In this document: piece after piece, positions 40,040 to 55,833 of the stretch
How positions within the stretch are numbered: position 1 is the first letter of the stretch
How the letters are laid out: each line of letters starts with the position of its first letter
Position numbers and translations under genes: made by a program
Notes under the pieces: model-generated
Told to the model about the DNA's origin: nothing
Databases searched by the model: none
What the model saw: only the letters and a program-made list of their open reading frames with translations
Source: a virus
Length of the DNA stretch: 55,833 bases
Reading direction: 5' to 3' (one strand)
Virus record (IMG/VR): IMGVR_UViG_3300021371_000019
Span: 1-55,833 of that record

Positions 40040-40376
40040 TGTCACCTCTGAGCAATTGTATGTAATGATCTAGCTCTGTTATAACTAACCACTTCTGTCT
40101 GTCACTTCGATAGAAAACAACAGGTGGATTCTTTGTGTGATTGTCGGCTTGTTTCATCCAGTCATACGCAGTTTTTAAACCTGATTTCCTACGTTTAACT
40201 TCTATTGATATAGGTATCAACTTACGTGCTGCAGGTGATAGTTGTATATCTGCACCAGTGTCACCCATAACAGTAGACTTAACATCATCAGGCTCAAGCT
40301 CAGGGAAAGCTTCTAGTAAAGCATCCCTGATCTCTTGCTGGCCTAACCTGCCTTTCTGTTTACCCTGCTTACTCAA
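40026..40376 (-). CDS. PD-(D/E)XK resolvase-like endonuclease
   Basis: 116 residues. GRLGQQEIRDALLEAFPEL is an N-terminal helix with a Glu typical for this fold. GDTGADIQLSPAARKLIPIS then IEVKRRKSG gives the D...E-V-K catalytic core. The shape and size resemble phage Holliday-junction resolvase-type or very-short nucleases. It is ATGA-coupled to the Cas4-like nuclease upstream, which supports a joint role in recombination or DNA breakdown. Confidence 0.65.
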   Translation of the reverse strand: MSKQGKQKGRLGQQEIRDALLEAFPELEPDDVKSTVMGDTGADIQLSPAARKLIPISIEVKRRKSGLKTAYDWMKQADNHTKNPPVVFYRSDRQKWLVITELDHYIQLLRGDNDKQ

Positions 40377-41227
40377 TCTATTAACTCAGGTACTTTAGGT
40401 TTCTTAACCACATCAATTAAATACTCCTTACGTCCACCAGCATATTGAAATACCCTTGCTTCAGGCCAGCAGATCTTTCTGTATTCACAACCTGAACAAG
40501 CAAATGTAAGCTTAGTATTTTCAGATGTGTCTGACTGTGGTACAGGTGCAATACGTTCTTCTGGTAACTCACCTGACACAACCTCTTTTACTTTCTTAAC
40601 CTCTTGCTCTTTATTTTTTAACTCCTCAGTAAAGTCGTAAGTATCTAAACAAAGTTCAAAGGTATCTTTCTGTACGACAAGAAAAGCACCACGTTTTTTA
40701 TCTGTTACAAGTGGATCATCCTTACCTGCGTAAACGTATGAACTTAATTGACTGATGTAACCATATGGATCGTCATCACGTAACACATGGTTCTTAAACT
40801 TCTGCATTCCATATCGTGATGCAGACTTAACATCTATTGTTACACCGTCAATGACTGCATCTCTGTGACCTTTAATGCCATGAACAGAGAGTCTGTCCTG
40901 CTCTCCCTGTACATCATGCCCTGCTGCCCTTGCTAGGGCAAGGACAAGAGTTTCTAAAAGATCCCCGTAAAAGAAAAGACCCAGTAACTGGGGCTTTAAT
41001 GGTGCAGCTTCCTCTGTTTTATTTATTCTATACCAAGTCTTTCTTTTACAGGGTGAACCCACAGAGGATAAACTTAAATATCCTCTGGGCTTCTGAGGTT
41101 CCTTAAACCTATCGTGTGCAACGTCAGCTATATTACGTGCTAAGTATTCCGTAATTGTTCTATCCCACCCACCCTTTCCTTCAATTACAGAATAAATATC
41201 TTCGACTAATGTATCTATCTTAGGCAT
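40373..41227 (-). CDS. RecB/Cas4-type exonuclease with probable iron-sulphur cluster
   Basis: 284 residues. The PD-(D/E)XK core is visible as IKGHRDAVIDG and TIDVKSASRYG. Four cysteines have the spacing of an Fe-S cluster nuclease: SPCKRKTWYRI near residue 58 and CSGCEYRKICWPE near 245-257. Such enzymes (Cas4, AddB-type, phage exonucleases) resect DNA ends in recombination. AAGGAG seven bases before ATG. It lies in the replication operon next to SSB. Confidence 0.78.
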   Translation of the reverse strand: MPKIDTLVEDIYSVIEGKGGWDRTITEYLARNIADVAHDRFKEPQKPRGYLSLSSVGSPCKRKTWYRINKTEEAAPLKPQLLGLFFYGDLLETLVLALARAAGHDVQGEQDRLSVHGIKGHRDAVIDGVTIDVKSASRYGMQKFKNHVLRDDDPYGYISQLSSYVYAGKDDPLVTDKKRGAFLVVQKDTFELCLDTYDFTEELKNKEQEVKKVKEVVSGELPEERIAPVPQSDTSENTKLTFACSGCEYRKICWPEARVFQYAGGRKEYLIDVVKKPKVPELID

Positions 41228-48974: not shown

Positions 48975-48994
48975 TCTCGGAATTTCCGTGATTA
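48975..48994 (-). promoter_or_regulatory. Operator-like dyad, copy 1
   Basis: Plus strand TCTCGGAATTTCCGTGATTA. The core CGGAA-T-TTCCG is a perfect dyad with one-base centre. It overlaps the stop codon of the DUF932 gene and lies sixteen bases before the 88-residue gene's ATG. Confidence 0.7.
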
Positions 48995-50541: not shown

Positions 50542-50561
50542 TCTCGGAATCTCCGTGATTA
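50542..50561 (-). promoter_or_regulatory. Operator-like dyad, copy 2 (fused to a start codon)
   Basis: Plus strand TCTCGGAATCTCCGTGATTA, one base different from copy 1. On the coding strand the dyad runs directly into the ATG of the GP88-type gene, so protein binding here would also affect translation initiation or the transcript 5' end. Confidence 0.65.
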
Positions 50562-50975: not shown

Positions 50976-50995
50976 TCTCGGAATTTCCGTGATTA
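50976..50995 (-). promoter_or_regulatory. Operator-like dyad, copy 3
   Basis: Plus strand TCTCGGAATTTCCGTGATTA, identical to copy 1. It overlaps the stop codon of the 132-residue gene and ends at an ATG; the likely gene start is twelve bases downstream. Confidence 0.7.
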
Positions 50996-52004: not shown

Positions 52005-52150
52005 TTAATTCTCCTTTTCATTCTCGGATTTTCCGTGATTAGTCTTGCATTACTAGGGAAACGTTTCAGTATCTTCGATACTTGCCGCATGTCACGACAA
52101 GTAAGATAAGAAAACATAAACCCTTCATCATCATAAAAACATACCCGCAT
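52001..52150 (-). CDS. Small basic protein, 49 residues, containing dyad copy 4 in frame
   Basis: MRVCFYDDEGFMFSYLTCRD then MRQVSKILKRFPSNARLITE and a basic end. The segment LITENPRM is encoded by the operator-like dyad itself, so that regulatory sequence is translated here. ATGA-coupled to the 76-residue gene. Its reality is supported by coupling and ORF length only. Confidence 0.45.
   Translation of the reverse strand: MRVCFYDDEGFMFSYLTCRDMRQVSKILKRFPSNARLITENPRMKRRIK
52022..52041 (-). promoter_or_regulatory. Operator-like dyad, copy 4 (inside an ORF)
   Basis: Plus strand TCTCGGATTTTCCGTGATTA. One of the core positions is changed (ATT for AAT). It is inside the coding part of the 49-residue ORF, fifteen bases before the next gene's ribosome site. 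Confidence 0.6.
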
Positions 52151-52152
52151 GA

Positions 52153-52308
52153 TCACCCCCGATCAAAAGCTAAAACAGAAAGTAATATTACTACAGGTAG
52201 TAATGATAATAATATTATAGGATTAATAGTAGTATAAGCTACTATTAATAATATACTTGTAGTAGATACAAGTATTAATAACCAAGCAAAGAATATTACT
52301 AATTGCAT
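52153..52308 (-). CDS. Small membrane protein, 51 residues
   Basis: Two hydrophobic helices (VIFFAWLLILVSTTSILLIV and PIILLSLLPVVILLSVLAF). AAGGAG is eight bases before the ATG. Two of its hairpins are long (11-bp arms at 52222-52249; 8-bp arms at 52253-52275). Composed largely of Leu/Ile codons TTA and ATA. Perhaps a small effector on the host membrane; unknown. Confidence 0.5.
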   Translation of the reverse strand: MQLVIFFAWLLILVSTTSILLIVAYTTINPIILLSLLPVVILLSVLAFDRG

Positions 52309-52341
52309 GACGTGATCTCCTTCTGCCGCATGCTTACAAAA

Positions 52342-52366
52342 GTATTCACGGAAATTCCGTGAATAC
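52342..52366 (-). promoter_or_regulatory. Operator-like dyad, copy 5: perfect 25-bp palindrome
   Basis: GTATTCACGGAA (52342-52353), one A, then TTCCGTGAATAC (52355-52366). Both halves match the CACGGAA half-site, so this copy may be the strongest site. It lies between a terminator and the 51-residue membrane gene, where a promoter is expected. A second palindrome, TATACTTC-TTT-GAAGTATA, follows at 52370-52388. Confidence 0.8.
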
Positions 52367-52391
52367 CACTATACTTCTTTGAAGTATAAGC

Positions 52392-52425
52392 AAAAAAAAA
52401 GCTCCCCGAAGGGAGCTTCTTTTAT
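52392..52425 (-). terminator. Intrinsic terminator with UUCG loop
   Basis: On the minus strand AAGCTCCC, loop TTCG, GGGAGCTT, then nine T. It lies at the stop of the 61-residue gene. On the plus strand the same hairpin is followed by TTCTTTT, so it could work both ways. It separates the first two early genes from the rest of the leftward block. Confidence 0.85.
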
Positions 52426-52607
52426 ATTTCACCAAGAGCAATCAAACAATCTATAAAGCCTTCAGCTTTATGTTTGTTGACCCAATGGTCACTCTCCTTT
52501 TTAAGGAGGACTGGATGATCTATATGATCGTTTATTAAACGACCTTGATAACAAAAACAGTATTCAGTATTTGAATACTCTAAGATTTGAACTCCACAAT
52601 ATTCCAT
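52422..52607 (-). CDS. Hypothetical protein, 61 residues
   Basis: MEYCGVQILEYSNTEYCFCY followed by a helical C-terminus (EGFIDCLIALGEI). Cys-rich N-terminus (three Cys in 18 residues). The ribosome site GGAG is in the loop region of an 8-bp hairpin (TTTAAATC-GGA-GATTTAAA, 52608-52626). The gene itself is packed with short hairpins. Not recognised. Confidence 0.6.
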   Translation of the reverse strand: MEYCGVQILEYSNTEYCFCYQGRLINDHIDHPVLLKKESDHWVNKHKAEGFIDCLIALGEI

Positions 52608-52629
52608 TTTAAATCTCCGATTTAAAGTT

Positions 52630-52650
52630 AATCACGGAAATTCCGAGATT
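52630..52650 (-). promoter_or_regulatory. Operator-like dyad, copy 6 (opposite orientation)
   Basis: Plus strand AATCACGGAA, A, TTCCGAGATT; the asymmetric halves are reversed relative to copies 1-4 and 7. One mismatch from a perfect palindrome. It lies just upstream of the hairpin that contains the ribosome site of the 61-residue gene and just after the terminator-like hairpin of the 204-residue gene. Confidence 0.7.
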
Positions 52651-52653
52651 GAA

Positions 52654-52673
52654 TAGCCCCCCGAAGGGGGCTA
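52654..52673 (-). terminator. UUCG hairpin after the 204-residue gene
   Basis: TAGCCCCC, loop TTCG (minus strand), GGGGGCTA: an eight-pair GC-rich stem seven bases after the stop of the 204-residue gene. Only a short T-containing tail follows, so it could be a weak terminator or a 3' stabiliser. Confidence 0.6.
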
Positions 52674-52679
52674 AATGAT

Positions 52680-53294
52680 TTACTTAAAGAGCTTTGCAAG
52701 CTCTTTTGCGAACTCAGATCTCTTAAAGCCTCCGGCTTGAAGAGCATCAAATACTTGCTCTGCAAGTTCTTTTTCGTTCTTGGCAATCACTGTCTCAAAG
52801 ACAGTGTTCTTGATCACTTCCTCAGCCTTATTAGGCTGTTCAGAAGCCTTCGGCTTGCCCTTTGAAGTGTTACCGGCTGAAGAAGCTTTAGGCTTCTTAC
52901 GAAGCTCAGGATGAGCTTCCAGAACAATCTTCCGTATCGAAGATACGCCGAGAGCCGAAAGCTTACCAGCTTTATTTAACTGTTGGACTTTAGTCCAATG
53001 AGTGGCAATCCACTTGGCATCATACTTATCAGCAGAGCTGATGTTCTCATTCGACATATCAGTTCCACTGATAAAGGAGCCGTAGGCTTTCTTGTCACCA
53101 CCGAACAGATTTTCAATCTGAAGCAGGATGTTTCCAAGCTCTCTAAAGAGAGCTAACTGATCCTCTTGGATCAGATAAAGCTTGTCATAACAAGCCACCG
53201 CATGACTGATTCCATCAGTCAAAGTATAGGTCTTACGACCTAATTTGAAAGTGCTGTTCAATGTTACCGTAGGTAAAGTAGCTGATTTTGTCAT
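52680..53294 (-). CDS. First leftward early protein, 204 residues, hairpin-rich gene
   Basis: The first gene of the leftward program. The N-terminal half is alpha/beta (FKLGRKTYTLTDGISHAVAC, then a helix LALFRELGNILLQIENLF); residues of about 95-125 read DAKWIATHWTKVQQLNKAGK, then a Lys/Ser/Pro linker (RKKPKASSAGNTSKGKPKAS) and a helical C-terminus ending KELAKLFK. I do not recognise it. Ribosome site GGAG, seven bases from the ATG, lies in a hairpin (TTAATC-GGA-GATTAA, 53297-53311). About seventeen hairpins with 6-bp or longer arms are inside the gene and none seems to break the reading frame. Confidence 0.7.
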   Translation of the reverse strand: MTKSATLPTVTLNSTFKLGRKTYTLTDGISHAVACYDKLYLIQEDQLALFRELGNILLQIENLFGGDKKAYGSFISGTDMSNENISSADKYDAKWIATHWTKVQQLNKAGKLSALGVSSIRKIVLEAHPELRKKPKASSAGNTSKGKPKASEQPNKAEEVIKNTVFETVIAKNEKELAEQVFDALQAGGFKRSEFAKELAKLFK

Positions 53295-53345
53295 CGTTAA
53301 TCTCCGATTAAGTTAAGGTTGTTGCCCCATCGATTTGCCGATGAA

Positions 53346-53383
53346 GCCCTTACAAAGTAACTCTAATTCGATCCCATTGTCAA
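53346..53383 (-). promoter_or_regulatory. Candidate leftward early promoter
   Basis: Minus strand TTGACA (plus 53378-53383) is perfect; a poor -10 (TTACTT or TACTTT, 17 or 18 bp away) lies near 53353. The -35 overlaps the hairpin at 53381-53399, and dyad copy 7 is 21 bp upstream. This is the natural place for transcription of the 204-residue gene, but the weak -10 makes it tentative; an activator at copy 7 might compensate. Confidence 0.4.
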
Positions 53384-53404
53384 CCCCTTTAGGGGGTTGG
53401 CTAT

Positions 53405-53424
53405 CCTCGGAATTTCCGTGATTA
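53405..53424 (-). promoter_or_regulatory. Operator-like dyad, copy 7
   Basis: Plus strand CCTCGGAATTTCCGTGATTA, one base from the consensus. Located about 110 bp upstream of the 204-residue gene and 21 bp upstream of a TTGACA element; between two GC-rich hairpins (53381-53399, 53427-53442). Confidence 0.7.
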
Positions 53425-53934
53425 ACTTCCCCTTTAGGGGAAACTTTTTGATCTTTTGGTGAGCATTATGCGCAAGGAAAAGCTATGCAGGTGATCCCGA
53501 TCCCAAGCATGATCCCAGATGATTGAACCATATTATGGTTTGACCATGATCTTGGTCTAAAGACCAAAGCCCTGTAATTCCCAAGAGATTACCTTGTAAT
53601 CTGATAAAGGGAATCCCTTATTGTTTGTAAAAACAATACATTTCAATGACTTGTCATTGATTCTTGCTGAATCCTACGGATTTATAGGCGTGATCAAGCC
53701 CCATCTAGGCTACGGGGGGCATGGGCCATAGGGGGGTACGCTGATACTATATACCCATAATGACAGAGGGGGGTATTTTCAGTTGGAAACCACAATAATA
53801 CCAGCCCATATATAGTATTCCCTAGTAAAAACAAGGGGTTAAGCCTAATATTGCTACGAAAGGCAAAGGTTATTGTAGAATACTTGGGGGATTACGTGAG
53901 GTATGTTGCAATGTTTGTAACAATTTGTGAACAT

Positions 53935-54030: not shown

Positions 54031-54058
54031 TTGACAAATAATTGGAGTGCGGTATAAT
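54031..54058 (+). promoter_or_regulatory. Perfect-consensus rightward sigma70 promoter
   Basis: TTGACA (54031-54036) and TATAAT (54053-54058), 16-bp spacing. It should be a strong early promoter read by the host polymerase, giving a leader of about 160 nt before the 81-residue gene. The leader includes AT-rich inverted repeats, for example ATCCTT-T-AAGGAT near 54138-54150. Confidence 0.8.
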
Positions 54059-54722: not shown

Positions 54723-55072
54723 TTGGTCAAATTATAGGAGCAATTGGCGGATTAGCCTCTTCTTACCTAGATGGTAAGGTAGCAATACAAAAAGCTAACG
54801 CTGAGATTAAACTTAAGCAAGCTACTGGTGAGATAGACTGGGATCTAGCAGCTATTCAAGCTACTCAGAACTCTTGGAAAGACGAATGGATTACCTTGCT
54901 CTTTTCAATTCCATTGATTCTAGCATTCTGTGGTGATTGGGGTAATAGTATTGTTCAAGCTGGCTTTGCTGCACTAGAAACTATGCCAGCATGGTATCAA
55001 TATTCACTAGGTGGGATTGTTTCAGCAAGTATCGGGATTAGATCCGTAAGTAAATTCTTTGGGAAAAAGTAA
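54719..55072 (+). CDS. 3TM-type holin (GTA holin family)
   Basis: 117 residues. An N-terminal IGAIGGLASSYLDGK amphipathic region, a charged helix (KANAEIKLKQATGEIDWDLA), then SWKDEWITLLFSIPLILAFC and a C-terminal GGIVSASIGIRSVSKFFGKK. The order and DEW-TLL-SIPL motif match the holin family of phage and gene transfer agents (GTA_holin_3TM). It would form the membrane lesion that lets the endolysin out. The last 61 codons are repeated at positions 1-185. Confidence 0.8.
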   Translation: MIGQIIGAIGGLASSYLDGKVAIQKANAEIKLKQATGEIDWDLAAIQATQNSWKDEWITLLFSIPLILAFCGDWGNSIVQAGFAALETMPAWYQYSLGGIVSASIGIRSVSKFFGKK

Positions 55073-55314
55073 TGGCTATTAATAGGACAGGTAAAGAAGA
55101 AAAACCTAGATTTACTGGGACTGAAAAGATAAGACTACGTAAAATCCTTAAAGATAATCCAGTGTATTTCGATAAAATACTTAGAGATCTTTATAAACCA
55201 CCAACTAAAAAAACCAAACCAAACTCTATCGGCCCAGAATTACGGGATAAAAAAGGTGTACTTAAACGAGCCTTATTGAATAAAGGTGGTATGGTAAAAG
55301 GTAAAAAGAAATGA
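55072..55314 (+). CDS. Strain-variable basic protein, 80 residues
   Basis: Present only in the right terminal copy. Lys-rich with a helical middle (EKIRLRKILKDNPVYFDKIL), a Lys/Thr/Pro linker and a KGGMVKGKKK tail like other small proteins here. The start overlaps the holin stop (TAATG) and the stop overlaps the endolysin start (ATGA). It is flanked by short near-repeats, GGGAAAAAGTAATG and GGTAAAAAGAAATG. Perhaps a lysis modulator or an unrelated cargo gene. Confidence 0.65.
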   Translation: MAINRTGKEEKPRFTGTEKIRLRKILKDNPVYFDKILRDLYKPPTKKTKPNSIGPELRDKKGVLKRALLNKGGMVKGKKK

Positions 55315-55820
55315 AAAAAAACTTTGACAAATGTTTATCAATGCTATTGCACCATGAAGGTGGGTTTGTAAATCACCCTAAAGATCCGGGCGGTATGACT
55401 AACCTCGGTGTTACTAAAGCGGTATATGACAAATGGATTGGTCGTGAGTCTACTGAACAAGAAATGCGAGACTTAACATTTATAGATGTAGCACCTATTT
55501 ACAAGAAGAATTATTGGGATAAGGTAAGAGGCGATGATCTTCCTAGCGGTGTTGACTGGTGTGCCTTTGACTGGGGGGTTAATAGTGGTTCTGGTCGTCC
55601 AGCTAAAGCTATTCAACGTGCTGTAGGGGTAACAGCAGATGGGGCTATTGGTCCTATGACCCTTCAAGCAATTATGAACAAAGATCCTCAGATGATTATT
55701 GAGAGTGTCTTTAGTCAACGCCAGAAGTTCTATGAGTCTTTACGTACCTTTGAAACCTTTGGTCGTGGTTGGACTCGTCGTAATAAAGAAACCCTAGACC
55801 AAGCATTGAGTATGATCTGA
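55311..55820 (+). CDS. Endolysin, glycoside hydrolase family 108 (right copy)
   Basis: 169 residues, same GH108 and peptidoglycan-binding layout as the gene at 185-694. Differences visible: M for I at about residue 29, V for A near residue 107, otherwise synonymous. Most changes fall at third codon positions, which indicates purifying selection on the protein. It is one locus represented by two variants, not two genes of one virion in all probability. Confidence 0.93.
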   Translation: MKKNFDKCLSMLLHHEGGFVNHPKDPGGMTNLGVTKAVYDKWIGRESTEQEMRDLTFIDVAPIYKKNYWDKVRGDDLPSGVDWCAFDWGVNSGSGRPAKAIQRAVGVTADGAIGPMTLQAIMNKDPQMIIESVFSQRQKFYESLRTFETFGRGWTRRNKETLDQALSMI

Positions 55821-55833
55821 TGAGTATACCTGA

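Follow-up and report, generated by a model that had tools for sequence, protein, structure and literature searches.

The window analyzed here, the whole 55,833-nucleotide stretch of a 55.8-kb virus record from a marine phage, encodes a family-A polymerase, a primase-helicase, a class II ribonucleotide reductase, an integrase, a portal protein, and a terminase, and its closest annotated polymerase relatives belong to Roseobacter phage CRP-6 and Zobellviridae phages. Its ends (1-707 and 54888-55833) overlap with 96-97% identity, so that the record probably represents a circular map, with variation between strains where the ends meet. A Cas4-domain/PD-(D/E)XK exonuclease gene (40373-41227) lies in the replication operon, and a perfect rightward consensus promoter (TTGACA-16-TATAAT, 54031-54058), matched by one in the relative L040, precedes a rightward operon running into the lysis genes. 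The leftward early operon, on the minus strand, begins with gene 1 (52680-53294, 204 aa), followed by gene 2 (52422-52607, 61 aa), neither of which belongs to a known family. Two candidate leftward promoters were read by eye, both unlisted by the consensus scan: an internal one at 53352-53383, with TTGACA at 53378-53383 and kept in relatives, and an upstream one at 53808-53838 (CTTGTT...TATATA). UUCG hairpins on the minus strand lie between the two genes (52654-52673) and after gene 2 (52394-52423), the latter terminator-like with a T run.

The leader and both genes of this operon are covered by about 35 mini-palindromes with arms of 6-9 bp and loops of 3-5 nt, mostly one per 20-50 bp. When only perfect, non-overlapping hairpins with a stem of at least 6 and a loop of 3-5 were counted, the core of the array (52320-53700, ~1.4 kb) contained 34, compared to 1.3 ± 1.1 in dinucleotide shuffles (maximum 7, n = 200), with sparser members reaching about 52060. 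Seventeen of these lie within the coding sequence of gene 1, where synonymous shuffles yield 1.2 ± 1.05; others lie within the coding sequence of gene 2, and the leader part of the array (53312-53700, minus strand) has hairpins at 53381, 53427, 53526, 53552, 53586, 53619, and 53643. The first 48 kb of the window show only a mild hairpin excess (65 versus 43 in shuffles). Two candidate origins were rejected: proliferation of a repeat element, since the palindromes have no common arm sequence beyond the start-associated, ribosome-site, and UUCG families, and a physical genome end, since the end overlaps of the window, G001, and G002 differ in place and contig ends are hence not fixed.

Two members of the array coincide with ribosome sites. 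An earlier note on this DNA had proposed that both genes use sites built from GGA-loop hairpins, and these are indeed present on the transcribed (minus) strand: TTAATC-GGA-GATTAA at 53297-53311 for gene 1 and TTTAAATC-GGA-GATTTAAA at 52608-52626 for gene 2. In each, the Shine-Dalgarno GGAG begins in the triloop and ends 7 nt upstream of the ATG. The same note asked whether homologous phages keep the loop while the arms covary, and named loss of the arrangement in close relatives as evidence against it. Such loss did not occur. A search of relatives that itself required CGGAG recovered 21 GGA ribosome-site hairpins in 12 relatives; the arms pair completely in all 21, nine distinct arm sequences are represented, and the ATG lies 7-9 nt past GGAG. 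The loop is nearly always GGA running into GAG; in two relatives, L029 and L120, the gene 1 site is ATTCTC-AAG-GAGAAT, with AAG running into GAG, and the Shine-Dalgarno sequence again starts in the loop. Because these two use AAG, the conserved trait is a Shine-Dalgarno sequence beginning in the triloop rather than the GGA loop itself. Downstream of the site, the first ~50 nt of gene 1 contain no perfect hairpin with a stem of at least 6 in any of the seven sequences checked; in the window, one hairpin with a 5-bp stem lies there. This scarcity of hairpins around the start suggests that translation is affected by RNA folding, if only locally.

The array recurs among IMG/VR relatives, which are designated here by L numbers, with W denoting the window sequence. 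The array and the gene 1 module occur together in the close relatives L003, L004, and L009, in the more distant L006 and L007, and in a separate branch formed by L131 and L071; a gene 1 allele that is only ~45% identical also carries an array in L027 and L029, which otherwise match the background, and in the diverged phage L040. Counting these alleles, six diverged lineages each have their own array. Gene 1 of W, L006, L007, L027, L040, and L131 contains 17, 11, 16, 15, 16, and 14 perfect hairpins, respectively, compared to about 1-2 in synonymous shuffles, so that every lineage exceeds its shuffles at least about nine-fold. Lineages that could be compared across the whole region have 31-37 perfect hairpins each, though at differing positions. 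All array sequences are metagenomic contigs, and the lineages share ancestry, so that counts are not independent and naive P values overstate certainty. Neither gene 1 nor an array is present in L102, L105, and L060, diverged relatives in which the early region was seen, indicating that the array is tied to the gene 1 module and is not a general replication hot spot. Likewise, the known phages CRP-6, PA11, and PQ867840, which have a related polymerase, lack an array. The gene 1 alleles of the window (52680-53294) and L027 (1856-2497) are strongly diverged (about 45%) and swapped into near-identical flanks, and L027 and L029 differ in gene 2, making this a hypervariable early cassette. No homologues of gene 1 were found in annotated phages or bacterial genomes. 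A search with its AlphaFold model (pLDDT 70) gave no significant PDB or viral match, the best viral hit being an unknown phage protein with an E value of 0.03, and assignment of function by fold was abandoned.

Comparison of homologous hairpins revealed how the array changes. Arms are perfect or absent, and changes are paired, without G-U intermediates: between W and L004, 11 pair-restoring double changes (six transversion-type and five transition-type) compare to two changes on one side only, giving G-U or A-C. In addition, some homologous hairpins share their arms but have exactly inverted loops, in four clean cases only: AAA/TTT between W and its close relative L002 (30/30 flank), and, with similar flanks, TAAA/TTTA (28/30), TAC/GTA (23/30), and TTT/AAA (18/30) (L007 versus L040), a count that leaves out L107, L110, and L111, whose loci have the opposite orientation. 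Of four homologous triloops that changed completely, three are exactly inverted, for which the chance expectation is about 2e-4. Template switching at hairpins, with loop inversion and arm homogenization, has been described previously, and paired changes and loop inversions of this kind are ascribed to it (PMC8604942, PMC8794818); exact loop inversion is a signature of the process. At the same time, stems evolve slowly. At synonymous third positions of gene 1, stems differ at 5% and spacers at 22% of sites between W and L004, and at 11% versus 37% between W and L009; stems are slower than spacers in all pairs tested except W-L007. In the noncoding leader, W and L003 differ at 3 of 104 stem positions versus 38 of 241 spacer positions, and stems are slower in several pairs, the exceptions being the W-L004 and W-L009 leaders, in which entire hairpins have given way to different ones.

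These data bear on whether the array could be purely mutational, that is, functionless and generated by a local template-switching hot spot that both makes and homogenizes palindromes. Such a hot spot would produce stems that are perfect or absent, inverted loops, and double changes of the transversion type. However, template switching alone accounts for perfection and inversions, not for localization or slow stems, and selection must be added because template switching does not obviously slow stems several-fold, as is seen in the leaders of several pairs, or confine the array to one module. The similar size of the array (31-37 hairpins) despite differing positions and its tracking of gene 1, rather than of the whole family, also argue against a purely mutational origin, which is considered improbable.

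A second question is whether the palindromes function in DNA or in RNA. Stems with one internal G-U pair number three, compared to 2.5 expected and to 34 perfect stems, and single-mismatch stems show no consistent excess; rRNA controls, by comparison, have more G-U stems than perfect ones, although the counts are small. Span-limited RNA folding of gene 1 is extreme on both strands, with z scores of -5.8 to -7.5 when the mRNA strand is folded and -6.5 to -8.8 when the antisense strand is. Stems and spacers have the same GC content, so the array is not maximized for stability alone. The loop-closing pair is C-G in 84 cases and G-C in six, a preference that is uninformative about the strand used because C-G reads identically on both strands. 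Strand-specific signals are limited to the UUCG loops, which occur in the RNA orientation only, and a weak A bias on the mRNA strand in noncoding loops, so some array members work as RNA. A separate leader hairpin at about 53320-53360, ~40-70 nt before gene 1, has apparent G-U pairs in L007, L027, and L040 (by eye) and, unlike the array, is possibly a true RNA element. Among the known RNA families in Rfam, none reached a gathering score.

Selection for mRNA structure, with stable mini-hairpins shielding the early transcript from nucleases, Rho, or host defence and the ribosome site displayed in loops, is a less likely reading. It would explain the position of the array at the operon head, downstream of a candidate promoter, the RNA-oriented UUCG loops and A-rich noncoding loops, and start-codon regions that lack longer hairpins and have the Shine-Dalgarno sequence in a loop. 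RNA selection alone is nevertheless insufficient, since it explains operon position but neither the missing G-U pairs nor the strand symmetry: pairing is not stronger on the mRNA strand, antisense folding being equally or more extreme in the coding sequence, G-U pairs are not tolerated, stem GC is not raised, and RNA folding of the ribosome-site segments themselves is unremarkable (z -0.8 to +0.7). The array thus has the look of a structure at the DNA level, one that is not accounted for by folding of the mRNA.

The loops offered another potential clue to function, since an excess of G-N-A triloops had been noted earlier. This excess was confirmed in the window, where 12 of 21 triloops (stems of at least 5) are G-N-A, nine on the transcribed strand and three on the other, whereas base composition alone predicts 2.6 (P = 1e-6, a naive estimate). 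It is weaker elsewhere (5/19 in L006 and 4/18 in L040), and homologous hairpins outside ribosome sites do not conserve G-N-A loops, which are a side effect of the larger hairpin array. Three further GGA triloops listed in the earlier note are real, and all lie on the minus strand inside gene 1: AAGCC-GGA-GGCTT (52726-52738), not at a ribosome site; TATCAGT-GGA-ACTGATA (53057-53073), with AAA or ACT as the loop in relatives; and TGACTGAT-GGA-ATCAGTCA (53203-53221), with a GGT loop in L009 and no hairpin in L006. Five GGA triloops on the mRNA strand, together with the G-N-A excess, could suggest a CsrA/RsmA target or sponge, or hairpin promoters of the N4 type. The promoters of the N4 virion RNA polymerase are short-stem, triloop DNA hairpins, and the array hairpins may resemble them. 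Unlike in N4, however, the hairpins here lie inside genes and their loops are not conserved. The suggestion that GGA is a CsrA-type or N4-type recognition loop is not supported: non-ribosomal GGA loops turn over to AAA, ACT, and GGT in relatives, and even the ribosome-site loop can be AAG, as in L029/L120, rather than the conserved GGA expected of CsrA/RsmA targets. As the earlier note had stated, the phage has no CsrA gene (the search was negative, while its control gave hits in E. coli and others). The large proteins, compared with PHROGs/Pfam/PDB, yielded no N4-type polymerase, and the search for a T7-type RNA polymerase (PF00940) had a silent control. Both readings were therefore dropped as very improbable. 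Because the Shine-Dalgarno start in the triloop is kept while other GGA loops change, the ribosome-site device is distinct from CsrA-like recognition, and an excess of a loop motif in palindrome-rich regions need not signal an RNA-binding protein.

A dispersed palindrome, CTCGGAATTTCCGTG, occurs at 48976-48990, 50543-50557, 50977-50991, 52023-52037, 52342-52366, 52633-52647, and 53406-53420, most copies lying 2-39 nt before the start codon of an early gene. The copy at 52633-52647 (CACGGAAATTCCGAG) lies just upstream of the gene 2 ribosome-site hairpin, that at 53406-53420 lies 112 nt upstream of gene 1, and that at 52342-52366, upstream of the gene at 52153-52308, is a version with 11-bp arms. 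In L071/L131, CATGGAGTTTCCATG replaces this palindrome. The dispersed copies look like operators or start-associated sites whose specificity shifts. Another reading considered was that the palindromes are closely packed sites bound by a phage protein (the gene 1 product is one possibility) that reads dyad-symmetric DNA or hairpins. Gene 1 and the array co-occur wherever both could be seen, and gene 1 has a lysine-rich low-complexity stretch; yet no arm sequence is shared outside the three families named above, and gene 1 lacks a significant fold match, making this reading quite unlikely.

The explanation favored here, with about even confidence, is that the palindrome array is kept perfect by hairpin-templated correction together with selection, and that Shine-Dalgarno sequences were moved into loops to stay usable. 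It starts from the observed array, its conservation over diverged lineages, its strict pairing and strand symmetry, the double changes, the loop inversions, and the placement of the Shine-Dalgarno sequences. The palindromes would behave as DNA hairpins, in their evolution if not also in their action: in single-stranded DNA the arms would pair, presumably in vivo, and one arm would template repair of the other, most plausibly by template switching, leaving arms perfectly Watson-Crick, changes that arrive in pairs, and a loop that is sometimes flipped. The stems would also be under purifying selection. In palindromes that overlap a ribosome site, the Shine-Dalgarno sequence would be placed to begin in the triloop and stay reachable, and the first ~50 nt of gene 1 would be kept free of hairpins with a stem of at least 6. 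The array would serve the early-gene module, and a role in replication or in single-strand structure near the operon head is our guess. A related reading, regarded as possible but less likely, is that selection favors folding of the early-module DNA, and of its coding sequence too, into about 35-40 mini-hairpins in the single-stranded state, with genes 1 and 2 doubling as a DNA structural element (e.g., for replication or single-strand handling) and the Shine-Dalgarno sequences moved into loops.

Perfect inverted repeats are rare in coding sequences, where the demands of encoding a protein and of keeping the repeat conflict. Yet the two genes described here evolve fast and are densely filled with palindromes, which differ from allele to allele as the array is rebuilt. 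They thus offer a natural setting in which to distinguish selection from hairpin-templated copying as the reason that palindromes persist, and they illustrate how a ribosome site inside a palindrome can remain usable. A limited literature search found no description of such an array in a phage, and, besides the N4 promoters, three known systems offer the closest comparisons. Template-switch hairpin mutations share the paired compensatory changes and exact loop inversions, but are scattered in rRNA and yeast genes, whereas here they are packed in about 35 neighbouring hairpins (PMC8794818, PMC8604942). The coding palindromes of nematomorph mitochondria are likewise perfect inverted repeats, numerous and set inside functional genes; they are perfect or absent, a pattern ascribed to repeat conversion, and their arms evolve in concert, for which template switching was proposed (PMC6649704). 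Those mitochondrial palindromes measure 15-142 bp per arm (PMC6649704), in contrast to the 6-9 bp arms and 3-5 nt loops packed into one phage module here. In cluster K mycobacteriophages, a Shine-Dalgarno element (SAS) just before non-structural gene starts is often preceded by an inverted repeat (ESAS) whose consensus differs among subgroups (PMC3203893). The window has a comparable inverted repeat close upstream of six early genes, with CTCGGAATTTCCGTG replaced by CATGGAGTTTCCATG in L071/L131. By our own reading of its sequence, the SAS element GGGATAGGAGCCC could likewise form GGG-CCC pairs flanking the Shine-Dalgarno sequence. However, SAS is a fixed 13-bp sequence, and no array of coding mini-palindromes is mentioned in the passages considered (PMC3203893), whereas in the phage described here only CGGAG or AAGGAG is common to the sites, the arms vary, and pairing and Shine-Dalgarno placement are what is kept. 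By analogy, the start-associated palindromes and ribosome-site hairpins would work like SAS/ESAS without being members of that family.
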